A DNA stretch of 64,000 nucleotides from Juglans regia. Its lineage: Eukaryota > Streptophyta > Magnoliopsida > Fagales > Juglandaceae. Positions 1 through 52,510 of the stretch are shown one piece after another. The stretch spans positions 33,371,866 to 33,435,865 of the forward strand of contig NC_049907.1 of NCBI RefSeq assembly GCF_001411555.2. Reading direction: 5' to 3'. The notes under the pieces were generated by a model. The model worked only from the letters and a program-made list of their open reading frames with translations. It made no database searches and had not been told where the DNA came from. Numbering within the stretch: position 1 is the stretch's first letter; each line of letters opens with the position of its first letter. A program made the translations under genes and the position numbers.

Positions 1-336
1 TATCACCCTTCTCTAACCAATGCCTTTTAGCCATCTGCTTCCATTTGATGTCTTCTTGATCTAGTAAAAATCTAATTTCCTTCTGAAACTGTTTCTGAAC
101 ATGCATAGAACTCGGTCCCTCATCCCTTTGTAACTGATTTAAGGCTTTAGATTTTTCCTTAATATCCTTAACTCTGTCTCTATCGACATTCTTGCTCCAT
201 CTTTGAAGACCTCTTTTACACACCTCAAGTTTAGCCTGGACAGTTTCTAAATGATTTAAATGATTCATACCAGCCATCATTTTTTGCCATTCTAATGCCA
301 CTGCATGACCATACCCTTCTTCTCTACTCCGACTAG
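1..336 (-). mobile_element. LINE A, ORF2 segment between endonuclease and reverse transcriptase (runs off the left edge)
   Basis: On the minus strand this reads as the charged linker that follows the endonuclease domain in plant L1-type LINE ORF2 proteins. It contains WSKNVDRDRVKDIKEKSKAL and ends near the edge with KWKQMAKRHWLEKGD, which resembles the conserved W-x-x-x-G-D segment just before the reverse transcriptase. It continues the same LINE seen at 5301-6728 and 10328-10645. The gap is a gypsy element whose target duplication ACTAG lies at 332-336 and again at 5301-5305. No poly-A end is in the window. It is a decayed copy. Confidence 0.8.
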
Positions 337-1143
337 TGATGGACACCAACATGGATCTAGTCTTAACTATCATTTATAAGTTTCAGATATGCCAATTATA
401 AGGTCAAGGGCCAAGAATATCAATGAAGCAATGCAAGAATTGGTGCAATCCACTTGGAACGAGTTTAGCAAGAGCCCAATATTTAAGATGGGCTTGAAGG
501 ATGAAGATCCGGTTTTGTTTCATTTGATAAGTTATGGAAGAGGGCAACAATATGACTTAAAGGCTTTGGGCACTTGAAAGCTTTCAACTTGTTTAATTCA
601 TTTTAAGGACTTATTTTATTAGTTTAGAATAGTTGAGTTTATTACGGAAAGACCTTAAGTGGGGCCTATGTAAGGGCATGTTGAAAAAGTTATTATTTTA
701 TTGAACTAGTGTTTCAAGAGGTTACTGTAGCGTTACTGTAGCCGCGATACTGTTCATCTATGGGCATTTTGGGTAAAAGGGGTTTTATTTAAGTTAGGGT
801 TTTAATTAGGTTTTTGTTTAAATACTCTTTGTAGCCTCATTTTAATCAGTTTATGAAATTTGATGAATTTATTCATTGTGAGTTGAGTTTCTCTCCTCTT
901 GTTATTGATTGAACTTTTGAACTTATCAAAGGTAAATCACAACCTTTGTGGCGTTCCTCCTTTGTAATTTGGGTTCTTGAGACGGGTTCTTCAATGGGTC
1001 TAGATTTTAATATAGTATAGGTTATTGAAACGAGTTCTCATCGGGTCTAGATTCTCTATCAATTGACTTGATTTTGACTTTCTTGGGTGAGTTTTCAAAT
1101 TGATTGTGGGTACAAGGGATTCTATTCCTGTGGGTTCATATAA
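337..1143 (+). repeat. 5' LTR of gypsy copy I
   Basis: It begins TGATGGACACC directly after the target duplication and aligns with 4482-5300. Its first ~240 bases still read as the C-terminus of the polyprotein (389-577, starting with the PIIRSRAKNINEAMQ motif), because this family has coding sequence inside its LTR. Downstream are the GGGTTTTAATTAGG region and a probable TATA-like TTTAAATACTC near 818. Confidence 0.9.
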
Positions 1144-1145
1144 TT

Positions 1146-1158
1146 TGGTACTCAGAGC
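1146..1158 (+). other. Primer binding site of gypsy copy I (Met-tRNA type)
   Basis: TGGTACTCAGAGC lies two bases after the 5' LTR. It differs little from TGGTATCAGAGC, the site complementary to the 3' end of plant initiator Met-tRNA used by most gypsy elements. The same position in copy II reads TGGTATTCAGAGC. Confidence 0.8.
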
Positions 1159-1932
1159 AAGGTTTCCAACCAGGTCTGCTTCTATATTTTAATTCTTGTA
1201 TCTTTAAATTTAATTCTAGAGTTTCATTGTTCTAGAGTTACAAAAAAAAAAAAAAAAGGTGGCTGCCGAATTTCTTCACTGTTCTTTGGGCTGCCAAATT
1301 TCATTGTTCTAGGGTTTGTGTTGGTTGAAATCTCTTATTCTGGGGGCTGCTGTATATCACACTTATCCTAGGGTTTTTGAGTTATTGTTAGGGTTTTCTC
1401 AGTTGCTTATTCTTGATTATGATAAAATGAGTTGGTGAAAAGACATGAAAAAAAAAAGAAAAAAAAAATCGTCAAGAAAAGAAAAAAAAATCGTCTAGAA
1501 AAGAAAAAGAAAAAGAAAGTCGTCCAGAAAAATAAATAAATAAAAATCCAAAATTTTTTTCTTGAGTTTTATCATCAAAGGGGCTGCATACATTATTCTA
1601 GTTGGTATCTTGTCTTATAGTTACTTTTTCATTCGTATAATCTTCTTGATTCACGTGTCGTTTTTTATATCTTTCGTATTTCTCTTGTTCTTATTTCTTG
1701 GACCTAATTACTTGTTGGAATAAAATAAGGTTGCATTGTCTTGATTGAGTTCAATTAGTTCTTAAAGAACTTGAGTGGGAAAACTTTTGAGGTAAAATGC
1801 AAGAGAGTGTGAGACTATTATCGAGAAAAAGTCAATTAAGAGTGAAATACGAGTGGAGTGTCATTATGCTAGTGTAAACATGTAAGGGAGTGTGTAAGGT
1901 TTTCTACTAACATTCTTTTTGTATAACACATT

Positions 1933-3000
1933 ATGATTTCTCATAGGAGTGACCCTTCACCAAAGGGGATGACAGATAACTCATCATTTGTGTTGCTAGC
2001 CATGCAACAACAGTTTGAGCAATTGAACTTGGTGTTGGGCCAAGTGAGAGATAATATGGATCATCAAGAAGAAGTGATTAGAAATTTGCAAGGTGGGAGA
2101 AATAGGAGGCGACGTGAGCCTATAATTGAGAATGGGTATGAGAATGAAGAGTATGGTGAGGATGAAGAAGACCTAATATCTAAAGTTGGATTTGGTAGAC
2201 ATAGAGGGGTTAGGCATGGAAGAGGACTTAGGGCAAACCCATGGGGTCGAGATGGAGTAGATAAGAACCTTGGGAGCTTTAAAATGAAAATACCATCATT
2301 TCAAGGCAGAACTGACCCTGAAGTTTATTTAGAGTGGGAGAAAAGAATAGAGTTGGTGTTTGATTGTCATAATTACTTTGAGGAGAAGAATGTGAAGTTG
2401 GTAGTAATTGAGTTCACTAATTATGCGAGTATTTGGTGGGATCAATTAGTGATCAATAGGAGGAGGAATCTTGAGAGGCCTGTAGAAACTTGGAGAGAGT
2501 TGAAAGCTATCATGAGGTGGAGATTTGTACCTAGCCACTACTATAGAGATCTCTACCAAAAACTATTAAAATCTTACACAGGGGTCTAGGAGTGTAGAGG
2601 ATTACCATAAGGAGATGGAGGTGGCTATGATTCAGGCTAATGTAGGAGGATCGGGAGGCCACGATGGCTAGATTTTTTAGTGGGTTGAATAGGGAGATAG
2701 TCAATGTAGTTGAGTTGTAATATTATGTGGAAGTAGAGGACATGGTACACATGGCTATGGAGGTGGAGAGATAGTTGAAAAAAAATGGTACGTTAAGGTA
2801 TACTTCGGTTTCTAGTACTCATTGGAAACCAAAGTGGGACAAAAATGATCAAGCTGTAACAAAGGGGAAGACCGAACCACCTAAGGGAAAAGATGAGGGT
2901 GAGGCTAAAACCTCAAGAAAAATGGAGAATGAGTTGAAAAACAATTATGAGGCCAAGACTCCAAAACAAAAGGAGAGTGGAAAGGAAAAAAGAGAGTGAG
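1933..3000 (+). pseudogene. gag of gypsy copy I, frameshifted
   Basis: The first frame (1933-2589, 218 residues) is a recognisable gypsy capsid protein. It has an N-terminal coiled segment around MQQQFEQLNLVLGQVRDNMD, an Arg/Glu-rich linker, then the capsid core with YLEWEKRIELVFDCHNYFEE, WWDQLVINRRRNLERPVETW and RFVPSHYYRDLYQKL. Near 2567 the frame breaks just before the expected LTQGSRSVEDY segment; that segment and its continuation follow in other frames with several stops (2590-2775). The Lys/Glu-rich tail (2775-3130) is built of repeated short charged blocks. No zinc knuckle is visible. Expected role: packaging of element RNA. Confidence 0.85.
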
Positions 3001-4215
3001 ATGAAAAAAGAGAATGAGGCCAAAAAATCAAGAGAAAGAGAGAGTGAAAAAGAAAATACAGAGGTGGCTGAGAGTCAAGAAAAAAGAGTGGAGCCACGAA
3101 AGGAAAAAGAAAGAGAGATTGCAGAGAGAAACAGAAAGACAAAAGTGAGTTTTTATGCTACGACAATCTTTTATACTAATGAATTTAACGACTCTTTGCC
3201 AATTGTTGTTGTTTCTTTGTTGCAGGGATATGAGGTCATGATTCCTAGCAGTGTGTTTAGTGGATTGCCACCTATTAGGGAGATAGAGCACTACATTGAT
3301 TTTGTGCCAGGTGCGACAATTCCTAACCGACTTTTCTTTGAAGAACATGAGTCATTGACGCACTTGAACGGACAACGTAAGTTGAATAGAATGCATGCCA
3401 AACGGGTGGAATTCATTGAGACATTTCCTCATGTATTCAAATACACACAAGGTATGAAAAATTTTGTGGTTGATGCTTTAGCAAGAAGGTATGCCATTGT
3501 CTTCATTTTAGATGCAAAATTGTTGAGACTTAAATATGATAAGGAATTGCATGCTAATGATTATGACTTTGCTAGTGTGTATGGAATATGTGAGAAAGCA
3601 TTGTTTGGTAAGTTCTATAAACTAGATTGAAACTTGTTTATAGATAATAGATTTTGTGTGCCTACTAGTTTTATGCGTAAGTTACTTGTGTGTGATAGAC
3701 ATGGTGGTTTGTTGGGTAACCTTGGTGTAAGGAAGACTTTTGTTGTGTTGCATGAACGTTTGTGGAAATATCATTTGACATTCAATGACATGTTGTATGA
3801 ACGTTTGTGGAAGTATCATTTGTCATTCATTAATGTGTTGCATGAATGTTTGTGGGAGTATCATTTACCATTCATTGAAGTGTTGTATGAATGTTTGTGA
3901 AAGTATCATTTGTCATTCATTAACGTATTGCATGAACGTTTATGGGAGTATTGCTTGCCATTAATTGAGTTTGCTTATAATTGGAGTGGTCATTTTGGTG
4001 TAAGGAAAGCTTTCAGTGTGTTTCATGAACGTTTGTGTGAGTATCATTTGCCATATATTGACTTGTTGCATAAACATTTGCGAGAGTATCATTTACATTT
4101 CATTGAGTTTGCATATTATTGGAGTGGTCATTTTGGTGTGAGGAAAGTTTTAGATCTGTTTCATGAACATTTGTGGGAGTATTGTTTGTCATTCATTGAG
4201 TTTACATATAATTAA
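2947..4215 (+). pseudogene. pol remnant of gypsy copy I: protease/RT border fused to RNase H and integrase pieces
   Basis: The frame 2947-3630 reads through the charged tail into [19 protein letters not shown] and [19 protein letters not shown], which is the segment just before the RT. It then jumps to [18 protein letters not shown] and VVDALARRY, the end of RNase H, so the whole reverse transcriptase is absent. After a stop at 3628-3630, 3634-4215 contains the start of the integrase zinc-binding region (RKLLVCDRHGG, GVRKTFVVLHE), then a run of 15-residue repeats made from that motif and from the integrase C-terminal FIEFAYNWSG motif. The catalytic DDE region is absent. The same joins occur in copy II. 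Confidence 0.8.
3747..4215 (+). repeat. In-frame 45-bp tandem array at the integrase deletion junction, copy I
   Basis: Eight units of about 45 bp, each beginning GTTGCATGAACG or GTTTCATGAAC, encode variants of LHERLWEYHLPFIE. The fifth and seventh units carry a 48-bp extension encoding AYNWSGHFGVRK. The array starts where the zinc-binding part of integrase (GVRKT..VLHE) was joined to the C-terminal part (LPFIEFAYN). One unit ends in a stop at 3898-3900. Copy II has a shorter version at 34013-34312. Confidence 0.85.
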
Positions 4216-4320
4216 AGTGTTCATGCTACTACTCAATTTTCACATTTTGAAATTGTTTATAGACTTAATCTATTTACTCTTTTAGATTTAATACCTTTAT
4301 CAATTGATGACAGGAGTATC

Positions 4321-4584
4321 TTGGATGGACTATTCCAAATTCTTGAACAAATTAATGATAATGCATATCAAGTGGATCTTGCAGGTAAGTATCATGTTTA
4401 TGCTATTTTCAATGTTAGTAACCTTTTCCCCTTAGATCCAGGTGAAGATTCGAGATCGAATCATTTTAAAGAGAGGACGAATGATGGGCACCAATATGGA
4501 CCTAGTCTTAAAGATCATTTGCAAGTTCCAAATGAGCCAATTACAAGGTCAAGGGTCAAGAAGATCAAGGAAGCAATGCAATAA
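4321..4584 (+). pseudogene. 3' end of gypsy copy I polyprotein, reading into the 3' LTR
   Basis: The 87-residue frame contains LDGLFQILEQINDNAYQVDL and YHVYAIFNVSNLFPLDPGED, the chromodomain-side C-terminus of gypsy polyproteins, followed by the PITRSRVKKIKEAMQ tail. The tail lies beyond 4482, so it is encoded by the LTR itself. Confidence 0.8.
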
Positions 4585-5300
4585 TTGATGCATCCACTTG
4601 GGACGAGTTTAGCAAGAGCCCAATATTCAAGATGGGCTTGAAGGATGAAGATCTAGTTTTGTTTCATTTGATAAGCTATAGAAGAGGGCAACAACATGAC
4701 TTAAAAGCGTTGGGCACTTGAAGGCTTTCAACTTGTTTAATTCATTTAAATGACTTATTTTATTAGTTTAGAATAATTAAGTTTATTATGGAAAGGACTT
4801 AAGGGGGGCCTATGCAAGGGCATGTTGGAAATTTTATTATTTTATTGAACTAGGGTTTCAAGAGGTTACTGTAACGTTACTGTAGCTACGATATTGTTGC
4901 TGTGGTACTGTTCATCAAGGGGCATTTTGGGTAAAATGGGCTTTATTTTAGTGAGGGTTTTAATTAGGTTTTGATTTAAATACTCTTTGTAGCCTCATTT
5001 TAATCAGTTTATGAAATTTGATAAATATATTCATTGTGAGTTTAGTTTATCTTCTCTTGTTCTTGATTGAACTTTTGAACTTACCAAAGGTAAATCACAA
5101 CCTTTGTGGCGTTCCTCCTTTGTAATCTGGGTTTTTGAGACTGGTTTTTCAACGGGTCTAGATTTTAATATAATCTAGGTTCTTGAAACGAATTCTCATC
5201 GGGTCTAGATTCCCATCAATTGACTTGATTTTGGCTTTCTTGGGTGTGTTTTCGAACTGATTGCGGGTTCAAGAGATTTCATTCCCGCGGGTTCATATTA
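4482..5300 (+). repeat. 3' LTR of gypsy copy I
   Basis: It begins TGATGGGCACC after a purine tract (4468-4481, AAAGAGAGGACGAA) and ends GGTTCATATTA immediately before the second ACTAG. It is 819 bp and aligns along its whole length with the 5' LTR, with small indels. Confidence 0.9.
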
Positions 5301-6728
5301 ACTAGCTTCATATTTGAAACTGGTAGATCGTCTCAACTGACCAGGTCTATTTGCAACACAATCTAATAGTAGGGGTCGATGATAAAAACAAATAGCAGTT
5401 AAAGACTCCACCTCATAATGACTATTACTATCAAACCAAACGTGATTAGCCAACACTCTAATATTTCTTTAGTATAAGTAGCATCTCCATGCCTATTACT
5501 TTATGTGAATTTATCACCCTTCCAGCCTAAATCAAACAAGTTACCCCTTTCTAGAATCTACCTAAACAACACTATCTGGCTCTCATTCCTTAATCTGTCC
5601 CCCACCTTCTCATCATTAGAAAAATCTCACTGAAGTCACCAATGACACACCACCCTATTTCATTAGGCTTAAAGGAGTTTAACAAATCCCACACTCCCTT
5701 TCTTTGACTAACCTCTAGTGACCATAAAAACAGGTAAGCAGCCACCTCTTCTCGCCATGATCATCAGTTATAATAACATTGATATGTCTAAGTGAATAAT
5801 TCGCTAACTCAATATTAAGATCATGCTTCCACATAAGCAGAAGTCCTCCACTTCTGCCAATAGCATCAACCCCTATACAGTTTTCATATCTAGCTTTTCT
5901 AGCAATCAACTTTTCATGCTTAGAAGAAAGCTTGGTTTCCATAAGGAAAACCACCTCGGACACTTTAACCTTCACTTGAGAGCAAAGGGTTTGAACCGTT
6001 CGGGGGTTCCCAAGCCCCAACAGTTCCAACTTAAGATTTTCATAATACTTGGCGGGGCTGACAAACAGCCTTCGCCAATTCCTTTTGGTAATCACTACTA
6101 GTCTAATGAAATCCACTCTTCCCCTTCTTTGAAACAACAGATTCAGACAGCAACTCCTCATTCTCATCAACCAGTCTTTTTTCACCAGATAAAGGACTTG
6201 AGTTAGAAGAAGTTTTACCTTGAGAACAAGTCCTTCTTTTCCATTTTCCCCCTCCTTTTTGTACATCTTGATTCCTGCCATGCACTCTAACCTTTTCCTT
6301 AGGCCTCCCCACAACAAGAGTTGTAACAAACTGATGAGAACTCGCTGGCCCATCAAGGCCCACCAACTTAACCTTATCCCTCCCAGCAGTAAACGCTTCA
6401 GAAATCAAATCAGCTACATCAAGATTTCCACTAACTGGATCAATAACCCCATTAACTCGCAGTGAATCCTCAGACTTATCCCTTCCTTCAAATTCCATAA
6501 CTAATCCACTTGGACTTCCTGGAGTCACGCCATGATTTTTGGTAATGACGTAACTGCCATCCACCTCTGTTCGCTGTCTCGTACCTTCCTCCACCACCTT
6601 GGCTCTGCCCCCGTTATTAGTGCTTCCGACGGACCCCTCCACCACTCTCGTCTCTTTAACTTAACATTCCTCACTTCATTCGAAACTTGTAGCAGGAGAC
6701 ACAAATGAAGTTCTACAACGGAAACCAC
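5301..6728 (-). mobile_element. LINE A, end of ORF1 and endonuclease part of ORF2
   Basis: On the minus strand, the frame at 6103-6645 reads as the low-complexity C-terminus of ORF1. Just downstream ORF2 begins, without a clean start, with NLKLELLGLGNPRTVQTL (the usual form is a W-N-C-R-G-L-G-N-P-R start), VVFLMETKL and GRSGGLLLMWKHDL, the N-terminal half of the apurinic-type endonuclease. Between 5700 and 5301 the endonuclease continues with many stops and shifts through CVIGDF and NLFDLGW-like segments to SFKYEAS at the gypsy junction. It is a dead copy, interrupted on the left by gypsy I and on the right by the captured-gene LTR element. Confidence 0.85.
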
Positions 6729-7179
6729 TGTAATGAACCCGGTTAATTCCTGTAATATTTCTTAAGATTCCTTCTCTATGTTGTAACGAGCTAGTGTAGA
6801 AATGGAAATGGTTATGCAGTGGTTGAATAACAGAGTGCATGGAAAGTGTTTGTGGAAATGTGTGAGTAAGATATAAGAGAAATGAATACTGCAATGGCTA
6901 CACCTTGGGGATATTCGAGATTCCCCAATTCCTCCAAGAAGATGAAAATAACTTCTACAATAATGTTCCAGATCCCCAAACAAGGACACCATTTCCTCTA
7001 CATATACTGGAAGATGATGACCTAATTCCGCTATAGCCAACTAAGGTCATGGGCCAATTCTAACTAACATTAACTAAGCCCATGGGCCACTAAACAACTT
7101 AAACAACTCAATTAAAGTAAAAGGTAACAACTAAGTTGGAGGCCCATCAAGCCCGGCCTCCAAAGTTGGGTTCATAACA
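6729..7179 (-). repeat. 3' LTR of the captured-gene LTR element
   Basis: 451 bp, TG...CA. The sequence AAAGGTGAGAGATT on the minus strand (7180-7193) just before it may be the polypurine tract. It aligns end to end with 9877-10327. Confidence 0.9.
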
Positions 7180-7379
7180 AATCTCTCACCTTTAAAGAAC
7201 CTTGTCCTCAAGGTTCAATATTGAAGCAACTCTATGGATTTTTTTTTTTTTTTTTTTTTAGAGTTGTCCCATGTCTCCTCTCTATCATCAGCAAGGGAGA
7301 CAGTACCATCATCACGAAGCTCACAACAAGAATCTGGCACAGCCAATTCACTAGCCACCTGCTTGATTTCATTGCATCT

Positions 7380-7990
7380 CAGGTAAATTCCTTCTCTAAA
7401 GAAAATCCATCCATTCCTCCCAAATCTGAGTAGCCATTACGATACTTATGTAGTGCAAGTAGAATTGGAAAAGGAAGTACTGGACCAACAAGAGTATCAT
7501 CTCGCTGCACTTTCCATGACCATTTTTTGCTTCGGCGTGAAGGCTTTCTTAGGAAGAAAGGAGGCAATTGAGGTAGGTCTGGAACAACTAGAAGTTCCTT
7601 GTGAAATTCTTTCAACTTCTTCATAGAATCCCACGAGGCAGTATAGTATCTTTGTAATTCAAGCTTCCCTGAAGACATAAGCCTTATCAGTGTAAAACTA
7701 CCAAGTTCATCAGACTCGGCAAGCTGTGCAGATAAACCTTTGTTTAGGATGCCAAAGTCCAAAACTCTCTTTCTCTTGCTACCAATCAATCCATTCAGAA
7801 AGATCATCCTTCAAAATCTCCTTCCTTACAAGACAACTTCCACATCTGCATTCATGACTAGACAATAACAGGTCCGTAGGGAGCTCCCATGCATAAATAG
7901 TTTTTGAAAAGTTTGAAATTTTAGACACAATGTTTCCTCGAGGGGTTGGTAAGGTAGGTCCATAGCAAAAGAGATTAAACTCACAATTCC
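7380..7990 (-). pseudogene. Captured host gene fragment, probably TAF1C-like (Pol I factor)
   Basis: Two minus-strand frames (8033-7779, then 7807-7379) join with one shift into a coherent stretch: FCYGPTLPTPRGNIVSKIS, the Cys-rich CRCGSCLVRKEILKDDLSEW, then LDFGILNKGLSAQLAESDEL and GSFTLIRLMSSGKLELQRY. From memory this pattern is that of the plant TBP-associated factor of RNA polymerase I, subunit C, but I cannot confirm it without a search. The fragment lies next to the 3' LTR, in the element's sense direction and without obvious introns. It is broken by at least one frameshift and has no start of its own. Confidence 0.4.
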
Positions 7991-8039
7991 AAAACGATCC
8001 TAACATCAAGCAAAAACTTGATTCAGAACCCACTGATAC

Positions 8040-8665
8040 ATTTCATTCCCTGAGTTTGATCTCAATTCAGACAATCTAAACACGTCAATGTAGCACGATT
8101 TATCAAGACCATGAGCCCATTGCAACATTGGCACCATCGAAATCTGCACAGGTTGTTCAATTTGTTGAACTGGATGAGTAGAAAATGGCTCAAGAGCACT
8201 TCTCGCATTCATATCAAGAGTTTCAGGCTCAAATAAAGTTGTACACAGACCATTTGCCAATTCGAAATTTGATAACTGGTTCATAGGCCATGTGGACAAA
8301 TGTACTAAGTTATCGCCAAAAGATATCTGCCAATTTGGTTGCCTTGGCACCGTATTTTGAAACTCTTCTTTGAGGACACTCTCGCTAGCTAAATGCTCAC
8401 CTATAGTCATATTTTCTTGTCCAAGGAAGATATCCGTTAAGGTAGATTGAGGTTCAGATGATGCACGAGAAGTTACAGGGGTATGGAATCCTTTGGAGTT
8501 TTCCAAGACCTCTTCCCATGAGCGTAGTAGCAGTGTAGCACATCAACACTACCAACCTTCAGCTTCTCATGAGCTTCCTTCAATGTTTTCCCATCTTCGG
8601 CTTTCAACATGCCAAAACAAGGACCTTGCCTGCGTATTTTATCGAACAAGTAGAGTGCATTGCTC
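8040..8665 (-). pseudogene. Captured CAMTA-like fragment (CG-1 DNA-binding domain and central region)
   Basis: On the minus strand, ALYLFDK (near 8655) leads to HEKLKVGSVDVLHCYYAHG (near 8560-8505). This is the signature of the CG-1 domain of calmodulin-binding transcription activators (CAMTA). A frameshift at about 8505 leads into a 166-residue frame (8506-8006) with EEFQNTVPRQPNWQISFGDN, HLSTWPMNQ and HPVQQIEQPVQ, which looks like the central region of the same family. CAMTAs are Ca2+/calmodulin-responsive nuclear transcription factors. The IQ, ankyrin and calmodulin-binding parts are absent. The piece follows the VOZ-like fragment in the same frame, and exon sequences are joined directly, as expected from capture of spliced RNA. 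Confidence 0.65.
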
Positions 8666-8683
8666 TTACAACTATACGTAATC

Positions 8684-8972
8684 GCATCATCTTCTTCCTC
8701 ACAAAGTCACAAAAGATTGCGAATTCCTCTGAATTGAAACTACACGCAACTAAAGAAGAAGTCGGGGACGGCTCATTGAGCTCGGATTTCCACTCTCGCA
8801 ACATCTAATGTACTTGCTATTCTAAAACCACAATGTCATAAGCTCGACTCTCATTCCTTGCAGATTGGAGGTCGTTGAGCACCCCTTCAAGGTCGTGGAA
8901 CAGGTTCTTAGCCCTCTCCTTCAAGAGCTGGCGCGATGCAAACTCGCACTTGCTCTTCGAACCCTTCTGCAT
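8684..8972 (-). pseudogene. Captured VOZ-like transcription factor fragment (N-terminus)
   Basis: The minus-strand frame starts with an ATG at 8972: MQKGSKSKCEFASRQLLKER, then NLFHDLEGVLNDLQSARNES and, after two in-frame stops, MLREWKSELNEPSPTSSL. This order matches the conserved N-terminus of plant VOZ (vascular plant one-zinc-finger) transcription factors. One shift later LCEEEDDA (near 8690) matches the next conserved VOZ block. The zinc-finger/NAC-like DNA-binding region is not present. The fragment is followed directly by the CAMTA-like CG-1 segment. Confidence 0.75.
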
Positions 8973-9050
8973 CGATCCCCTCCAGAAAAATCTTGAGATA
9001 CACAAAAAAATAGCCGAGCGTATAGCATAGAAATATTTTGCTATCGAAAT

Positions 9051-9875
9051 CTAAAAGTGCTTCGACAATGAGATAGCAACAGCTGGAAGGAGGGCACCGT
9101 GTACAGCGATCTCAGGCACAAGAAGAGTTCCAATATGTGCTTCATCTCCCACAAAATAAGAGGTGAGAAGTGGCAAAGAAGTTGATGGAGATGAGGAATC
9201 AGATTGAAGGGACTTACAACCGAGTGACACTAGATCTACAAAGAGACTGAGCTCTTCTCGGTCCCAAACCCACTCAACGATGAGTGACAGCCACTTGAGG
9301 GTGTGGGTCTCCCATGGGGGTTGCCATACGAGGCATTCAACAACATCTCTGCATCTGCGACCAACTAATCTCACAGAATCATCTACCTTGTTGATGAGGT
9401 GCATTGTGATCAAGTGCTCCCCCTTGGTGATGTCCATTTCTAACAGCGTGTTAATGGAGGAGAGCCACGAAACATGGATGGGAAATTCTGAGGGTTGAGA
9501 CAATATGATGGGATTGTCGAAGGAATTTTCTATAATAGAGGGAAGATACCGTGAGCACTGCCTTCTCTTTTCTTTCTTCCTGGATTTCATCTACATTTGT
9601 CATTCCATTTTTTTCCTGCACTATCCATTTTTTTGAATATTTGATTGAAGCCGTAGCTCCCTTTTCTACTCCCTCCTCCACAGCTTGGTCTTCCCAGACC
9701 AAGAAGGCTTCCTCGACTTGTTGCTGTAAACCTTGTAATTTGCGTGCATTCGATCAAGTAACTCTGTGATGTGCAACATTTTTTCAAGAGCTTTTTCCAT
9801 TAGTGGCAGCAAATTTACTGGCTGATTGTTGAAGGTTATTGCATCCATGGAAGAATCGGTGTCTCTAGATACCAC
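9051..9875 (-). other. 5' interior of the captured-gene element, unassigned reading frames
   Basis: A frame starting at 9875, overlapping the primer site, reads SSMDAITFNNQPVNLLPLME and LHITELLDRMHANYK, a helical segment. After a shift come QQQVEEAFLVWEDQAVEEG and a 179-residue frame (9590-9051) with INTLLEMDITKGEHLITMHL and WLSLIVEWVWDREELSLFVD. I recognise no family. It may be the element's own leader protein or a further captured gene. Confidence 0.4.
9861..9874 (-). other. Primer binding site of the captured-gene LTR element
   Basis: TGGTATCTAGAGAC on the minus strand, two bases after the 5' LTR, resembles the Met-tRNA primer site TGGTATCAGAGC with one inserted base. It fixes the element's orientation as minus. 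Confidence 0.7.
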
Positions 9876-9876
9876 T

Positions 9877-10327
9877 TGTAATGAACCCGGTTAATTCCTG
9901 TAATATTTCTTGAGCTTCCTTCTCTATGTTGTAACGAGCTAGTGTAGAAATGGAAATGGTTATGCAGGGGTTGAATAACAAAGTGCACAGAAAGTGTTTG
10001 TGGAAATGTGTAAGCAAGATATAAGAGAAATGAATACTGCAATGGCTACACCTTGGGGATATTCGAGGTTCCCCAATTCCTCCAAGAAGATGAAAATGCC
10101 TTCTACAATAATGTTCCAGATCCCCAAACAAGGACCCCATTTTCTCTACATATATTGGAAGATGATAACCTAATTCTGCAATAGCCAACTAAGGTCATGG
10201 GCCAATCCTAACTAACATTAACTAAGCCCATGGGCCACTAAATAACTTAAACAACTCAATTAAAGTAAAAAGTAACAACTAAGTTGGAGGCCCATCAAGC
10301 CCGGCCTCCAAAATTGGGTTCATAACA
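9877..10327 (-). repeat. 5' LTR of the captured-gene LTR element
   Basis: 451 bp, same length and boundaries as the copy at 6729-7179. The primer site lies directly downstream on the minus strand. Confidence 0.9.
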
Positions 10328-10645
10328 AGCACCCTCCGCTCGAAGCCATGCACCATATTGCATGGCTGTGAACTCCATCTTCTCATAACCTAAACCCTCT
10401 TTCATGCAACCAAAGACATCATGCACAATCCATCCACGCTTAAAATAAATTTTTGGCAACTTCCCATATTTGAATGAAGCCCACCGTTTCCTACCAAATG
10501 AATTAATAAAACGACCACGAGCAATAGTTTTCTGAAGGGGTAATTCAATTTTCACTTTCATATATTTCCCCCACCCTACTTCATCATCCGCCACATCCAC
10601 CTCCAGAACCCTACCTACAAAGGACCCAAATAGGTTATTTATATT
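10328..10645 (-). mobile_element. LINE A, ORF1 (gag-like) segment, 5'-truncated
   Basis: The minus-strand frame reads VDVADDEVGWGKYMKVKIEL, RGRFINSFGRKRWASFKYGK and LPKIYFKRGWIVHDVFGC. This is the DUF4283-type RNA-binding ORF1 of plant LINEs leading into a degraded C-C-H-C zinc knuckle (the first Cys pair is partly lost: YFKRG instead of CFKCG). Upstream of about 10645 the similarity stops, typical 5' truncation of a LINE. Confidence 0.75.
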
Positions 10646-30645: not shown

Positions 30646-31533
30646 TGATGAGAACCAAGGTGGGCCTAGTCTTAAAGATATTTTGCAAGTTCCAGATGGG
30701 CCAATTACAAGTTCTAGGGTCAAGAAAATCAAGGAGGCAATGCAAGAATTGATGCAATTCACTTGGAACGAGTTTAGCAAGAGCCCAACATTCAAGATGG
30801 GGCTTAAATGATGAAGATTCAGTTTTTATTCATTTCATAAGCTATGGAAGAGGACAACAACATGACTTAAAGGCGTTGGGCACTTGAAGGCTTTCAACTT
30901 GTTTAATTCATTTAAATGACTTATTTTATTAGTTTAGAATAGTTAGATTTATTATGAGAAGGACTTAAGGGCGACACCTATTCAAAGGGATGTTGGGAAA
31001 GTTATTATTTCTTACGAACTAGGGTTTTTGGGAAGGTCTTGTATTTTGGCCAAAGACTTATTTGGAAAGTTACTTTTCAAGATCTAGGGTTTCAAAAGGT
31101 TACTGTAGTGCTACTGTAGCCATGACATTGTAGCCACGACACTGTTCATCCAGGGGCATTTTGGGTAAAAAAGACTTTATTTTGGTTAGGGTTTAATTAG
31201 GTTTTGCTTTAAATACTCTTTGTAGCCTCATTTTAATAAGTTTATGAAATTTGATGAATTTATTCATTGTCAGTTGAGTTTATCTCCTCTTGTTCTTAAT
31301 TGAACTTTTGAATTTATCAAAGGTAAATCATAACTTTTGTGGCGTTCCTCCTTTGTAATCTGGGTTCTTGAGACGGGTTCTTCAACGGGTCTAGATTTTA
31401 ATATAATCTAGGTTCTTTAAATGAGTTTTCATCGGGTTTAGATTCTCCATCCATTGACTTGATTTTGGCTTTCTTGGGGAGTTTTCAAATTGATTGTGGT
31501 TTCAATGGATTCCATTACAGCGGGTTCATATCA
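30646..31533 (+). repeat. 5' LTR of gypsy copy II
   Basis: 888 bp from TGATGAGAACC to GGTTCATATCA. The first ~210 bases encode the degraded polyprotein tail. The primer site TGGTATTCAGAGC follows at 31536-31548. Confidence 0.93.
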
Positions 31534-32219
31534 TTTGGTATTCAGAGCAAGGTTTCCAATCAGGTCTAATTCTATCTTTTAATTCTTGCATCTTTATATT
31601 TAATTCTAGAGCTTCATTGTTCTAGAATTACAAAAAAAAAAAAAGTGGTGGCTGCCAAATTTCATTGTTCTAGGGTTTGTATTGGCTGAAATCTCTTGTT
31701 CTAGGGGCTGCCGTATATCACACTTATCCTAGGGTTTTTGAGTTATTGTTAGGGTTTTCTTAATTTTTTATTCTTTTGATTGTGATCAAATCAGTTGGTG
31801 AAAAGATAAGAAAAAAAAAAATCCGAAATTTTTTCTTAAGTCTTATCATTAAAGAGGCTACATACATTATTATTCTAGTGGTATCTAGTCTTATAGTTTC
31901 TATTTCATTCGTATAATTGTTTTGATTCACGTGTCGTTTTTATTATTTTATTATTTCTCTTGTTCTTGTTTCTTGGACCTAATTACTAGTTGAGATAAAA
32001 TAAGGTTGCATTGTCTTGATTGAGTTCAATTAGTTCTTAAAAAACTTGAGTGAGAAAACTCTTGAGATAAAATGCAAGAGAGTGTGAGACTATTATCGAA
32101 TAAAAAGTCAATTAAGAGTGAAACACGAGTGGAGTGTCATTACTTGAGTGTAAACATGTAAGGGAGTGTGTGAGGTTTTCTTTTTTTACCACTAACATTC
32201 TTTTGTGCAGTACCTTATA

Positions 32220-33330
32220 ATGTCTCATCGGAATAGCTCATCACCAAGGGGGAGATAAGATAACTCATCCTTTGTATTGCAAGCCATGCAACAACAGTTT
32301 GAGCGGTTAAACTTTGTGTTGGGCGAAGCGAGGGATAATATGGATTATCAAGAACCAGTGATTAGAAATTTGCAAGGTGTAAGAGATAGGAGGCGACGTG
32401 AGCCTAGTATTGAGAATGGGTATGAGAATGGAGAGTATGGTAAAGATGAGGAAGACCTAACATCTGAAATTGGATTGGGTAGACATAGAGGAGTTAGGCG
32501 TGGAATATGACTTAGGGCAAACCTAGGGGGTCGAGACAGAGTAGATTAGAACCTTGAGAGCATCAAAATGAAAATACCATCATAAAAAAGTAGAACTGAC
32601 CCTGAAGTTTATTTAGAGTGGGAGAAAAGAATAGAGTTTGTGTTTGATTGTCATAATTACTCTGAGGAGAAGAAGGTGAAGACGGCTGTAATTGTGTTCA
32701 CTGATTATGCGATTATTTGGTGGGATCAATTAGTGACCAATAGGAGGAGGAATCTTGAAAGGCCTGTAGAAACATGTAGAGAGTTGAAAGCTGTCATGAG
32801 GCAGAGATTTGTACCTAGCAACTACTATAAAGACCTCTACTAAAAACTACAAAATCTTACACAAGGGTCTAGGAGTGTAGAGGATTTACCATAAGGAGAG
32901 GTTATGATTCGGGCTAATGAAGTGGAGGATCGGGAGGCCACAATGACAAGATTTTTGAATGGGTTGAATAGGGAGATAGCCAATGTAGTTGAGTTGTAAC
33001 ATTATGTGGAGGTAGAGGACATGGTGCACATGGCTATAAAGGTGGAGAGGCGGCTAAAAGGAAAGGGTACATCAAGGTATACTTCGGCTTCTAGTACTCT
33101 TTGGAAACCAAAGTGGGACAAAAATGATCAAACTGTAACAAATGGGAAGACCGAACCACTTAAGGGAAAAGTTGAAGGTGAAGTTGAAACCTCAAGAAAA
33201 AGAGATAATGAGTTGAAAAATAATTGTGAGGCCGAGAGTTCAAAAAAAGAGGAGTGTGAAAGAAAAAAGAGAGTGAGAGGAAAAAAGAGAATGAGGCCGA
33301 AACATTAAAAGAAAGAGAGAGTGAAAAAGA
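32220..33330 (+). pseudogene. gag of gypsy copy II
   Basis: Segments in order: MQQQFERLNFVLGEARDNMD (32286), an Arg/Glu-rich linker, stops near 32508-32546, KKVKTAVIVFTDYAIIWWDQ, RQRFVPSNYYKDLY (ends at a stop, 32841-32843), then MEVEDMVHMAIKVERRLKGK (33006) and the Lys/Glu-rich tail. The start codon is unclear: the region equivalent to copy I's ATG reads ATGTCTCATCGG at 32220 but is followed by a stop. At least four disruptions. Confidence 0.8.
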
Positions 33331-33340
33331 AAATAGAGAG

Positions 33341-34312
33341 GTGATTAAGAGTCAAGAAAAAAGAGTAGAGCCACAAGAGAAAAAAGAAAGAGAGATTGCA
33401 GAGATAAACAGAAAGACAGAAGAGAGTTTTTATGCTAAGTCAAGCTTTTATACTAACGAATTTAATGACTCTTTACCTAGTGTTATTGTTTCTTTGTTGC
33501 AGGGATATGTGGTCATTATTCCTAGCGGCGTGTTTAGTGGATTGCCACCTATTAGGAAAATGGAGCACTACATTAATTTTGTGTCAGGTGCGACAATCTC
33601 TACCCGACCTTTTTTTGAAGAACATGAGTCCTTGACACACTTGAAGGAACAATGTAAGTTGTTGACTAGAATGCATGCTAAGTGGGAGGACTATATTGAG
33701 ACTTTTTCTCATTTATTCAAATACACAAGGTATGAAAAATTTTGTGGTTGATGCTTTAGCAAGAAGGTATGTCCTTGTTTTCATTTTAAATGCAAAATTG
33801 TTGAGACTTCAATATGATAAGGAATTGCATGCTAATGATGATGACTTTGCTAGTGTGTATGGAACATGTGAGAAAGCATCATTTGGTAAGTTCTATAAAC
33901 TACATTGGTACTTGTTTATAGAGAATAGATTTTGTGTGTCTACTAGTTTTATACGTAAGTTGCTTGTGTGTGATAGACATGGTCGTTTGTTGAGTAACTT
34001 TGGTGTAAGGAAGACTTTCAATGTATTGCATTAGCGTTTGCAGGAGTATCATTTGACTTTCATTGAGTTTGCATATAATTGGAGTGGTCATTTTGGTGTA
34101 AATAAGATTTTAAACATGTTGCATGAACGTTTGTGGGAGTATCATTTGCCATTCATTGAGTTGTTGCATGAACGTTTGCAGAAATATCATTTGCCTTTCA
34201 TTGAGTTTGCATATAATTGGAGTGGTCATTTTAGGGTGAGGAAAACTTTAGATGTGTTTCATGAACATTTGTGAGAGTATTATTTGCCATTTATAGAGTT
34301 TGCATATAATAG
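33341..34312 (+). pseudogene. pol remnant of gypsy copy II with integrase junction repeats
   Basis: Contains [40 protein letters not shown], then directly the RNase H end ([13 protein letters not shown]) and the integrase start (RKLLVCDRHGRLL, GVRKTFNVLH). The 45-bp array follows (34013-34312) with SLPFIEF-type and AYNWSGHFGVNK extensions. RT and the integrase core are missing at the same joins as in copy I. Confidence 0.8.
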
Positions 34313-34390
34313 GACCATGCATACTACTACTTCATATATTCACATTTTGAAATTATTTTTAGACTTAATCCATTTACTCCTTTAGATTTA

Positions 34391-34702
34391 ATGTCTTTAT
34401 CAGTTGATGATAGGAGTAGCTTGGATGGACTTTTCCAAATTCTTGAACAAATTAATGATAATGCATATAAAGTGGATCTTCCAAGTGAGTATCATGTTTA
34501 TGTTATTTTCAATGTTAGTAACATTTTTCCCTTTGATCCAAGTGGAGATTCGAGGTCGAATCCTTTTGAGAAAATGAGGAATGATGGGAACCAAGGTGGG
34601 TCCAGTCTTAAAGATATTTTACAAGTTCCAGATGGGCCAATTACAAGTTCAAGGGCCAAGAAGATCAATGAGGCAATGCAAAAATTGATACAATTCATTT
34701 GA
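34391..34702 (+). pseudogene. 3' end of gypsy copy II polyprotein, reading into the 3' LTR
   Basis: The 103-residue frame has LDGLFQILEQINDNAYKVDL, YHVYVIFNVSNIFPFDPSGD and, beyond the LTR start at 34582, the PITSSRAKKINEAMQ tail. The purine tract GAGAAAATGAGGAA is at 34568-34581. Confidence 0.8.
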
Positions 34703-35469
34703 GATGAGTTTAGCAAGAGCCCAACATTCAAGATGAGGCTTAAAGGATGAAGATTCAATTTTGAATCATTTGATAAGTTATGGAAGAGGGCAACAACATC
34801 ACTTAAAGGCGTTGGGCACTTGAAGACTTTCAACTTATTTAATTCATTTAAAGGATTTATTTTATTAGTTTAGAATAATTAGATTTATTATGAGAATGAC
34901 TTAAGGGGGACACCTATTAAAGGGCATGTTGGGAAATTTATTATTTTTTATGAACTAGGGTTTTTGGGAAGACCTTGTATTTTAGCCAAGGGCTTATTTG
35001 GAAAGTTACTTTTTAGGAACTAGGGTTTCAAGAGGTTACTATAGTGTTACTGTAGCCGTGACAGTGTAGCTGCGACACTGTTCATCTAGGGGCATTTTGG
35101 GTAAAATGGGCTTTATTTTGACTAGGGTTTGATTATGTTTTGCTTTAAATACTCTTTGTAGTCTCATTTTAATAAGTTTATGAAATTTGATGAATTTATT
35201 CATTGTGAGTTGAGTTTATCTTCTCTTGTTCTTAATTGAACTTTTCAACTTATCAAAGGTAAATCATAACTTTTGTGGCGTTCCTCCTTTGTAATCTGGG
35301 TTATTGAGACGGATTTTTCAACTGGTCTAGATTTTAATTTAATCTAGGTTCTTGGAACGAGTTCTTATCGGGTCTAGATTCTCCATCGATTAACTTGATT
35401 TTGACTTTCTTGGAGATTTTTTAAATTGATTGTGGGTTCAAGAGATTCCATTCTCGCGAGTTCATATCA
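34582..35469 (+). repeat. 3' LTR of gypsy copy II
   Basis: 888 bp, TGATGGGAACC...GAGTTCATATCA; the same length as the 5' LTR. Confidence 0.93.
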
Positions 35470-38451
35470 TTGGGCCCTCTGCACAAAGAATAAAGAGATA
35501 AGGGGATAGATGATCCCCTTGTCTCAACCCTCGAGTTGGCACAAGCTTCTCACCTTCTACTCCATTAACCAAAACTAAATAGGTCACTGATTTGACACAT
35601 CTCATAATAAGATGTATCCAGTTTTGATTGAAACCCATCTTGCCCAACAAAGCTTCCAAATATAACCACTCTACTCGATCATAGGCCTTTAACATGTCAA
35701 GCTTCAAAGCCATTGTACCTTGCTTTCCTTTTTGTTTTGTCTTCATTGAATTGATCACTTCATAAGCAATCATAACATTATCTATAATTGCTCTCCCAGG
35801 TATGAATGCATTTTGAGAAGGTGCTACAATCTCTGGTAACACTTTCTTAAGTCTATTGGCTACAGTTTTTGATAATAACTTATAAAAAGACATTACATAA
35901 ACTAATTGGCCTAAAACCTTATACAGATTTAGGATTTTTGACCTTAGGAATTAATGCTATATAAGTAAAATTAATAGACCTAGGATCAATACCATCATTT
36001 AAGAAATCCAACGTTGCCTTGCATACCTCCTCCTTAATAGTGCTCCAGTGCTTTTGATAAAAGCCAGCTCCAAAGCCATAAAGTCCTGGTGACTTTAATG
36101 GTGTCATTTGCATCAAAGCTTGCTCAACTTCATCTGTTGAGAACAGTTGAGCCAGGTCTGCATTTATTTGATCTGAAACTCTACCTTCCACATTCCTCAG
36201 GACAACATCAATATCTTCAATAGATGGTGTTTTAGTCGAGTAGATGTTTTCAAAATACTCTTTGAAAGCCTTCTGAACACCTTCCCTACTTGTTTGTAAC
36301 CTGTTCTCCATGTCCCTTATTTGAATGATCCTACTCTTCATCCTTCTTTCAGTTGCACATGAGTGGAATATTTAGTGTTCCTATCACCCATTTAATACCA
36401 ATGAGTTTTTGATCTCTGCCTCCACTTGAGATCTTCTTGCTCTAACATAATTCCCACCTCTTCTCTCAACCCCTTTATCTCTTCAATATTTCCCTACTCT
36501 TCAGCCGCCTACATCTCTCTCAACCTTTCAATTTTCACTCTTATCAAATGCTCCCTCTCTCTAAATGTATATTTGCTCCAATTGCTCAAAGCCTTACTGC
36601 ATCTCTTCAATTTTGCTTGTAAAACTGCAACTGAGTTAGGTTCCTGCTTAGCTTTATCCCATTCAACTTTAACTACAAGTCCACATCTTTCTTCAAGAGA
36701 CCGTCCAACCTTATACTTGAAATTCCTTCTTCTTACATACTCCTCTCTTCCCCCCTTAAATGAGTGAAGGATAATAGCACTATGATCAGAAGTGCATGTA
36801 GCCATAACCTCCACTTTCACCTTATCCAAGAAACATGACCACCTTGCATTTGCTACTGCTCTATCAATTCCTTCCTTCATAAAAGTTTCATCATTATGGT
36901 TATTGCACCAAGTGAAGAAACTGCCTGTCCAACCTAAGTCAAATAGGTTTATCAAGAGCCTCTCTAAAATTATCCATTTGGCTTTCACTTCTTGGTCTCC
37001 CTCCCATCTTCTCATTTTGTATTAGAATTTCATTAAAATCTCCTAAAACACACTACATCTCTTTGGTAGGTTTTAGAAGTTCCAATAAATTCCAGCTTTC
37101 TGTTCTTTTGCTAGTGTCTGGATGTCCATAGAACTCTGTCACTACCCATTTTATATTATGTTCCACATCAGTCACCCAACCACTTATATGATGACTTGAA
37201 TAATTAATAAGCTCAAATTTAGTATCTTCTTTCCATAGCATCAACAAATCTCCACTTCTCCCACTTGCATTAACATTAAAGCAGCCTTCATATCGTAACT
37301 TCTTCCTCAGAACTTCAGATCTTCCTTCATTAAGTTTAGTTTCCATAAGGAAAACTAAACTGGGCTTATTTATTCTAATCATTTTGATAAGATCTTGAAC
37401 TGTTCGAGGTTTCTCAAGTTCCCGACAGTTCCAACTTAAGGTTTTCATTGTTGTTGGCGGGGTTACTTAACAACCTCCGCCAATACAAGTTCATTTTCCA
37501 AACTACCTTCGACAATATTCTTCTTACTTTTCTTTCTTATTTGGCTTAAACTCTCATCTTCCCTTACTTCTTTTGCTCCTCTCTTTTTGCCTGTTTCAAC
37601 CATACTCATAGTAACTACTCCAATAGCTCTAGCTCTTCTTTTCCTAGACCCATCTACTGACTTCGATTTCTCAGATATTTCCAAGCTGTCAGTTAGATTA
37701 TAATCTTGCCCTTTCTGCCCTTGTACCAGCTTGTTGTTTACCCCTTATCTACAACAGATACCTCTTTGTTTAAAATCCGTTCAGAAGAATTTTCATTGAC
37801 CAGGTTAACAAATATGCCAGTTAGATCTCCCACCCCTTGATTCTGACCCCTTCATCTACTTTAATCTCATTGAGATTATCTAATCCCACTTCAATCTCCT
37901 TTCTTTTAGCAAAACCCATTTCTTTATCCCTCTTATGCAAATTCAAATTTAAATTTAAGGAATTTGAATTCACATCGAGATTATCTAATCCCACCTCAAC
38001 CTCATTTCTTTTAGCTAACCCCATCTCTTGATCACTCTTATGCAAATTCAAATTTGAATTTAAGGAATTTGAATTCACAGATTTTGATTTCTGCTGAATC
38101 TCTCCTATTTTCTCGGTAACTTCCTCCTGCTATGAAAATTCCATCTACTGCCTCCTTGCCAGCCCTGCCACCTCATCTCCTCCACTCACCACCATAGGGA
38201 CCACCACAAAATCCCATCTACCCCTTTCTTCTCTGTTGTCTGCAGCCTCTCTCCCTCCCTCATTACCACCATTCCATCTTTGCTTTCCTGGTATTTCTGC
38301 TTGCAGCCACTCCCCAAATTGAGAAAAGCATTTCCTTCCAATCTTTCTCTATTTGTCTTACAAGATAGGGAATCATGAATAATTGTACCACAAGAAAAAC
38401 ATACTCGTGGTAATTTTTCATATTTGATAGGAATCCACTGCCTTGAACTGT
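35470..38451 (-). mobile_element. LINE C, 5' half (ORF1 end, endonuclease, first part of RT)
   Basis: The minus-strand order is: an ORF1 end with a zinc knuckle (VCFSCGTIIHD near 38395) and a low-complexity tail that includes a 40-residue direct repeat (38078-37880, EVGLDNL..NSNSLN). ORF2 then starts at 37448 with MKTLSWNCRELEKPRTVQDL, followed by the endonuclease (VFLMETKL, LGDF, NLFDLGWTGSFFTWCNN), the linker, and the RT (SPGLYGFGAGFYQKHW, NAFIPGRAIIDNVMIAYEVI, KLDMLKAYDRVEW, RQGDHLSPYLFILCAEG up to 35475). Several frameshifts. It is 5'-truncated inside ORF1 at the 13-bp target duplication. Confidence 0.9.
37880..38078 (-). repeat. Internal ~120-bp direct repeat in LINE C ORF1 tail
   Basis: Two near-identical blocks (roughly 37870-37960 and 37975-38078) both encode NSNSLN.NLNLHK.D.EMG.AKR.E followed by EVGLDNL. 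It is a tandem duplication within the low-complexity region of ORF1. Confidence 0.7.
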
Positions 38452-52054: not shown

Positions 52055-52510
52055 GTGTCGGCACGACCCGCCGTCTCAAAACGATCATTAACGAGTCGCC
52101 TTTCACCCCTGACAGGACGAGTTATTTTATGTACAACCCGTCGCTTGCTTATTTATAGGAATACTCTGGGCCTTCCCCTTCTTAGCTTTCGCGATGTGGG
52201 ACTCCAATTCCCATCCTCTTTCTTTCTGTTTGTATTGGTTCACACAAAAGTCTACGTGCTGAGCCGGAGACTGGGAGCGGGTACGGTTGAGGGAGATGAT
52301 CTCAGTGGAGATCTATCGGAGTCGACCAGTTCGTATAAAAGGAGAATCGCTCGCAGGCCACAGCTCAGGCCCCGGCAACTGTCTCAGAAGGCTCCTCACA
52401 TGGGAGATGAAATGAATAGTCATGAACGGATTGTTGCACATCTCGTGAGGCTTATTCATAGAGAGGGTAAATTGATAGGGACTATAGACTATAGTCAACC
52501 ACTGAGCTAA
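52055..52510 (+). other. Chimeric 151-codon open frame at the head of the lipase pseudogene
   Basis: It joins unrelated upstream sequence to the lipase exon-1 frame ([16 protein letters not shown] to KRRIARRP), then to a copy of an intron-2 segment of the lipase gene that here is also open ([20 protein letters not shown]). It starts at an ATG at 52055 and ends at a stop at 52508. Whether it is expressed is unknown. Confidence 0.35.
52150..52202 (-). promoter_or_regulatory. snRNA-gene-like promoter elements (USE + TATA)
   Basis: On the minus strand GTCCCACATCG (52202-52192) matches the plant snRNA upstream sequence element RTCCCACATCG exactly. TATAAATA (52157-52150) follows after 34 bp, the longer spacing known for Pol II-type snRNA genes. 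Downstream sequence (52120 leftwards) matches no U RNA that I know. Similar motifs occur in some LTR promoters. Confidence 0.25.

Follow-up and report, generated by a model that had tools for sequence, protein, structure and literature searches.

Gene capture by long terminal repeat (LTR) retrotransposons has usually been described as separate events. Maize Bs1, in the part of the published accounts available to us, is an LTR element in which pieces from three host genes make up a chimeric gene (PMC13317346), and it contains exons only (PMC4717578). In soybean, GmaRetroS15, a terminal-repeat retrotransposon in miniature (TRIM), holds intron-less pieces of three genes in one small LTR element; the same source, as far as it was available, reports 30 elements in seven subfamilies with gene fragments, LTRs and 5-bp target-site duplications (PMC4717578). 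LTR elements carrying host genes have been reported in numbers of 672, 1,343 and 424 (PMC3726574, available in part), and partial accounts further describe NLR retroduplication in pepper (PMC5664825) and, in the Triticeae, the BARE-2/Wis-2 and Veju chimeras, formed by template switching between LTR-element RNAs (PMC13317346). Here we analyze a 64,000-nucleotide stretch of Juglans regia (walnut) DNA, called the window below, in which positions 6729-10327 of the minus strand are a 3.6-kb LTR retrotransposon with an interior of host-gene pieces. We consider it highly probable that this element belongs to a non-autonomous walnut LTR family that captures pieces of spliced mRNA and then exchanges them between elements.

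The walnut element is like Bs1, as far as the latter's description reaches, in having pieces of three host genes within an LTR element, intron-free as seen in CAMTA, and like GmaRetroS15 in having intron-less pieces of three genes in one LTR element. Bs1 is presented as three transductions in one element, whereas walnut has many relatives with differing sets of pieces, common pieces that recur in new combinations, and one mosaic in two LTR lineages. Helitrons, which are DNA transposons, also carry host genes in many copies. Pack-MULEs resemble the walnut family in their many copies with varied host fragments, but they are DNA transposons and, in the account available, also contain introns, whereas the walnut pieces are intron-free where this can be tested (PMC4717578). 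The gene-carrying soybean TRIMs measure 1,172-1,449 bp, compared with 3.6 kb in walnut, and exchange of pieces between lineages does not figure in that part of the TRIM account (PMC4717578). The examples in the accessible part of PMC3726574 have one gene per element, and no modular mosaic family is described there, unlike in walnut. The Triticeae chimeras are described as consisting of element or unknown sequence, whereas in walnut it is host-gene pieces that appear re-sorted. An earlier note on this DNA had regarded three genes in one LTR element as unusual and Bs1 as a single-gene capture; neither view is supported, since such elements are already known, with three genes each in Bs1 (PMC13317346) and GmaRetroS15 (PMC4717578), to judge from the parts of these papers at hand. 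As far as we searched, what is new is a modular exchange of host pieces over elements as well as LTR lineages, for which one genome holds both the donors and the intermediates. The open literature that was searched contained no paper on such a family, be it in walnut, with VOZ and CAMTA capture, or with multiple host gene fragments.

The LTRs are direct repeats of 451 bp with TG...CA termini. The 5' LTR (9877-10327, minus strand) has TGTTATGAACCC at its start and GGGTTCATTACA at its end; it matches the 3' LTR (6729-7179, minus strand) at 436 of 457 gap-free alignment columns (95.4%), with 21 substitutions and a Kimura two-parameter distance of 0.048. Immediately inside the 5' LTR follows the primer-binding site (PBS)-like sequence AGTGGTATCTAGAGAC, and the PBS-like motif TGGTATCTAGAGAC (9861-9874, minus strand) has comparable motifs in relatives. 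We take this motif to resemble the initiator tRNA-Met. The 5' leader (9557-9876, minus strand) is the element's own sequence and is wholly or partly common to relatives on C11 and C16. At the other end, the 3' leader with the polypurine tract (PPT; 7180-7237, minus strand) has the core CTTGAGGACAAGGTTCTTTAAAG, which occurs 97 times in the genome at no more than one mismatch. Direct LTRs with these termini, a PBS after the 5' LTR and a PPT before the 3' LTR identify an LTR retrotransposon. The style of PBS and PPT presumably recalls Ty3/gypsy, which is a likeness only, as the element has no pol by which to place it in a superfamily. Read on the minus strand, the flanks are GTGCT (10328-10332) and GTGGT (6724-6728), so that the target-site duplication is imperfect, with four of five bases matching. 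The matched LTRs and the primer site claimed by the earlier note were thus found as claimed, and its target duplication only to this extent.

No Pfam match to gag, pol or integrase was found in the eight interior frames scanned in this element, which fits a non-autonomous LTR element of the type of large retrotransposon derivatives (LARD-like). TRIMs have short LTRs; with LTRs of 451 bp and a length of 3.6 kb the element is outside the TRIM size range. Protein searches of the interior returned VOZ1-like, CAMTA and TAF1C sequences, with the best-scoring proteins from Carya and Juglans, and all three pieces lie in the sense direction relative to the element. An LTR element with no gag or pol detected around a sense host-gene interior, as the earlier note had described it, was confirmed, as were the identities of the three pieces; their coordinates had to be corrected to about 9085-8679 for VOZ, 8597-8144 for CAMTA and 8150-7254 for TAF1C.

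The VOZ1-like piece (8679-9085, minus strand) covers 5' untranslated region (UTR) together with roughly the first 99 codons, and its donor lies at C1:24209890-24210875 (94% identity); four proteins matched it, the best at 6.2e-37 with 89% identity to Carya. The CAMTA piece consists of four blocks (blocks 1-3, 8324-8597, and block 4, 8144-8329, both minus strand) with a CG-1 (CAMTA) Pfam match at 1.5e-9, and derives from C16:26874408-26885120 (92-96% identity). In the protein search, 13 proteins matched, the best at 3.4e-44 with 73% identity to Carya; four of them were CAMTA proteins, and the other nine appeared because the queried stretch extends into TAF1C. The TAF1C piece has a left block (7592-8150, minus strand; codons ~378-567 of protein P0001) and a right block (7254-7598, minus strand; up to about codon 815). 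It matched 107 proteins, the best at 4.0e-61, with a local identity of 88-90% to P0001, P0002 and P0004 (Carya, Juglans) over about one third of the query, and its donors are C8:19498932-19500229 and a copy on C9 (92-94% identity). Per block, identity to the donors is 91-96%, except for one 66-nt block of the VOZ 5' UTR at 85%. One might suppose that these matches reflect ordinary repeats or noise in the annotation and that a gag-pol element has decayed here, as the reading frames of this copy are indeed interrupted by stops; we regard this as hardly credible, because the main blocks match donor loci at 91-96%, which already refutes it, protein E-values reach 4e-61, and the scanned frames contain neither gag nor pol.

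The remainder of the interior did not yield another identified gene. Piece X (8597-8680, minus strand) was rejected as part of CAMTA, since no CAMTA follows it in relatives L018/L019, where it lies beside piece S1b, or in L044. S1a (9250-9546, minus strand) has copies of 73-78% identity in seven other places and is probably family sequence, and S1b (9084-9152, minus strand) is a 69-nt piece with 93% identity to L018/L019. S1 was rejected as a fourth identified host gene, because it has no protein match and S1a recurs elsewhere.

The joins within the pieces indicate how they were acquired. In CAMTA, two exons are joined exactly over a 6,928-bp intron (GAAG/GTAAGC...TTTTAG/GTTGGT), about 2.7 kb of the gene are then skipped at GGGAAGAG, and block 4 is joined over a 582-bp intron (GGCAG/GTACTA...TCCAG/ATATC) that is likewise exactly absent. 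Two introns removed exactly at GT/AG mean that the CAMTA piece derives from spliced RNA, and for this piece the spliced-RNA capture proposed in the earlier note holds; the VOZ join is not counted in its favor, and TAF1C is uninformative. The 417-nt skip in TAF1C sits at a GGAATTTCT-like repeat. CAMTA gives way to TAF1C at TGTGC, which is found in both donors. Internal skips and the CAMTA-TAF1C change thus coincide with short matches. Such matches are also compatible with break repair, and recombination between chromosomal element copies could likewise yield mosaics; the pieces might have been gathered at the DNA level by either route and retrotransposed later. The exact intron removals already count against this for CAMTA, and we judge DNA-level gathering improbable.

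The mosaic is not confined to the window. At L042 (C10), a single 2056-nt alignment covers window positions 9888-7857 at 90% identity. This copy has its own LTR pair, with 35 substitutions (20 transitions and 15 transversions) over 507 columns, and is flanked on both sides by the perfect target duplication GGTCT; its LTRs are barely alignable to those of the window element (score 86, compared with 66 for the best of 50 shuffles). One mosaic therefore resides in different LTRs. L041 (C10) matches window positions 9366-7857 at 91% and carries both CAMTA intron joins; it seems to be interrupted, since the remaining part of S1 follows only after about 2.2 kb. Partial states were found as well. In L018/L019 (C16), X directly follows S1b without VOZ, and in L044 (C12), S1b, VOZ and X have identical junctions with other sequence instead of CAMTA. 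VOZ is followed by X at a C6 locus, and VOZ is present in L015 (C2). The end of TAF1C precedes the PPT in L016, L017 and L020 (C7), and a CAMTA piece does so on C13. We read partial and fuller mosaics as accretion and exchange between elements, although loss may explain some members, and VOZ was likely captured once. With donors on C1, C16 and C8/C9, the mosaic at other loci and relatives with other host pieces, both the donor genes and the sister copies that the earlier note had proposed to seek were located in the same genome.

Two of these loci showed additional rearrangements. In L017 (C7:47627000-47636999), about 4.8 kb of other sequence separate two parts of the TAF1C piece. In the C13 relative (L009/L010, C13:32836000-32855999), what seems to be a nested retroelement separates the 5' part from the host-gene pieces; it lies on the opposite strand and has frames that by eye resemble reverse transcriptase, integrase and gag.

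The LTR query of the genome gave at least 41 matches; 26 surrounding stretches were fetched and frames were listed in 14 interiors. The cargo of these relatives is diverse: pieces of HSP70 (4.8e-10), ATP sulfurylase (PUA_2, 6.6e-17; PDB, 1.5e-25), importin alpha (PDB, 1.7e-84), a CLK-type kinase (PDB, 5.5e-29), MAP65 (2.7e-21), HSP90 (1.5e-10), a FAE1-type, ketoacyl-CoA synthase-like condensing enzyme (1.3e-41), a CDP-alcohol phosphatidyltransferase (4.4e-16) and RGLG (PDB, 9.4e-8) were found, together with an LRR in L042 (3e-10) and a Dak1 match under its cut-off (8.6e-5). With Pfam, 16 of the 30 sense frames scanned had matches at E <= 0.01, and 11 were above the curated cut-off, including RVT_1 in L015 (4.9e-16), LINE-type (long interspersed nuclear element) by eye. 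Apart from this one reverse transcriptase match, the scanned sense frames of relatives (30 plus 10, part of all frames) contained no gag or integrase. Matches to repeat proteins only, or gag-pol in sister copies, either of which would have overturned the earlier description, did not appear in the frames scanned. Of 16 interiors, among them sibling copies, 14 had their longest frame on the sense strand, and none of 18 antisense frames from nine interiors matched Pfam. The antisense set is a fair control but not a matched one, since the sense frames were picked in part by eye and exceed the antisense frames in length. Together with the sense direction of all three donors' pieces in the window element, this orientation bias also argues against gathering at the DNA level. 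Perfect 5-bp target duplications flank L020, L023, L024, L034 and L042.

In relative after relative, the host pieces lie between the PBS leader and the PPT. This position bears on another scenario, in which chimeric genes were retroposed first, by LINE-type template switching, and whole chimeric retrogenes were taken up by LTR elements later. A fungal tripartite chimeric pseudogene has been ascribed to LINE template jumps in the portion of PMC2104539 available to us. In walnut, no stand-alone chimera was noticed among the genome matches, at some of which LTRs were checked, and the A run at 7237-7257 coincides with an A-rich part of the donor, so that it was rejected as an mRNA tail taken up with the piece. 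We hold this order of events to be somewhat less probable still than gathering at the DNA level. A mid-element purine-rich tract, TTTGATAGAGGAAGGG-like, is conserved in nine of 17 interiors compared (L013, L016, L020, L022, L023, L024, L033, L034 and C13) and is possibly a second (central) polypurine tract.

The 23-base PPT signature behind the 97 genomic sites was exact at 32 of them, while its reversed control gave 0. From the exact sites we sampled the first ten listed that had not been seen previously, with 1.6 kb upstream of each. Ten frames from eight of these loci were sent to Pfam; L050, with a longest frame almost equal to the one in L049, and L054, which lacks any frame of 60 amino acids, were omitted. 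L046 (FtsH-type M41/AAA, 5.1e-23) and L051 (cyclin, 1.6e-29) matched above the cut-off, L052, L053 and L055 matched weakly below it, and the frames sent from L047, L048 and L049 had no match. Host cargo is hence firm at two of ten loci and suggestive at three. The ten frames contained no gag, reverse transcriptase or integrase, and all ten loci share stretches with elements already seen.

With regard to the mechanism, we infer that reverse transcriptase acts in trans, that elements are co-packaged, and that template jumping rather than DNA recombination produces the mosaics. The conserved parts of the family would be LTRs of more than one lineage, PBS, leader, PPT and often the internal purine-rich tract. 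A reverse transcriptase supplied in trans would hop from element RNA to host mRNA and back, so that stretches of spliced mRNA would enter the interior in the sense direction. Piece-carrying elements packaged together would swap pieces by the same template jumping; such exchange would build, re-sort and re-copy multi-gene mosaics and may place one mosaic under another LTR lineage.

Several observations weigh against capture from spliced mRNA followed by exchange. No autonomous partner that could supply the reverse transcriptase was found among the frames scanned for Pfam. TAF1C is intron-free across the captured stretch and thus uninformative on splicing, so that exact intron loss holds for one of three donors. 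At the join in the VOZ 5' UTR, about 590 nt of the donor are absent, with GTAAAT on one side and no clear AG on the other in this assembly; we rejected this join as proof of splicing for that reason. Fourteen of the 30 scanned sense frames of relatives had no Pfam match at 0.01, and in two of the 16 interiors the antisense frame was longer. LTRs were looked at in some loci only; L044, the C6 locus, L041 and the ten sampled PPT sites are accordingly loci with family sequence and not all proved elements. The VOZ sites shared among copies conflict in part (five in L041, L042 and L044; four in L044 and L015; three in the window copy, L041 and L042; three in all five), which makes a single VOZ capture likely but not proved, and the VOZ piece of the window is closer to the donor (94.3%) than to any sister (87.8-91.1%).

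Some copies are recent insertions. In L023 (C7:1986000-1992500), the LTRs are identical over 383 nt and AAGAC is found on both sides. L024 (C6:24907000-24913500), at a different site, has an interior 99% identical to that of L023, a GATAA duplication and 99.7% LTR identity, and in L034 (C3), three of 359 LTR positions differ and the duplication is GACGC. L023 and L024 contain an 843-amino-acid frame over nearly the whole interior, which ends in the RGLG piece; the largest frames in 200 shuffles of each, which preserve base composition only, were 173 and 181 amino acids. L034 has a 603-amino-acid frame. The 5' frame of all three is weakly ubiquitin-like, above the cut-off in L034 only. Its ratio of nonsynonymous to synonymous substitution rates (dN/dS) is 0.16-0.31 among L031, L034 and L023/L024, which suggests constraint on this frame, on few sequences; between L023 and L024 the ratio is 0.48, on three changes.

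The window contains further repeats. The element lies between parts of a frame that looks like a LINE ORF1; the three frames flanking the element had no Pfam match. The stretches 331-5298 and 30646-35474 are related, have direct repeats of 0.8-0.9 kb at their ends (88% and 90% identical) and are probably LTR elements; a Retrotrans_gag match lies at 1927-2586, inside the former. The segments 41991-49560 and 52252-55209 are diverged duplicates (76-91% identical); LINE-type sequence, which has endonuclease and zf-RVT matches at 44732-48388, interrupts one of them.

Partial and fuller mosaics coexist with their donors in one genome, which gives direct access to the sequence of captures, the sites of jumping and the switch of LTR lineage. 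It thereby becomes testable by what steps multi-gene chimeras arise, whether mRNA origin is the rule, and whether selection acts on long fused frames. We tentatively put forward a wider idea that we think somewhat less likely true than false: a recently or still active LTR family may serve as an exon-shuffling engine, taking up host mRNA pieces into an interior that acts as an open slot for cargo and re-sorting them between elements packaged together, with selection for an open fused frame, as in the 843 amino acids of L023/L024 and the 603 of L034, whose ubiquitin-like start seems constrained. If so, walnut would steadily gain new chimeric genes from this family, or RNAs that act on the genes from which the pieces came.

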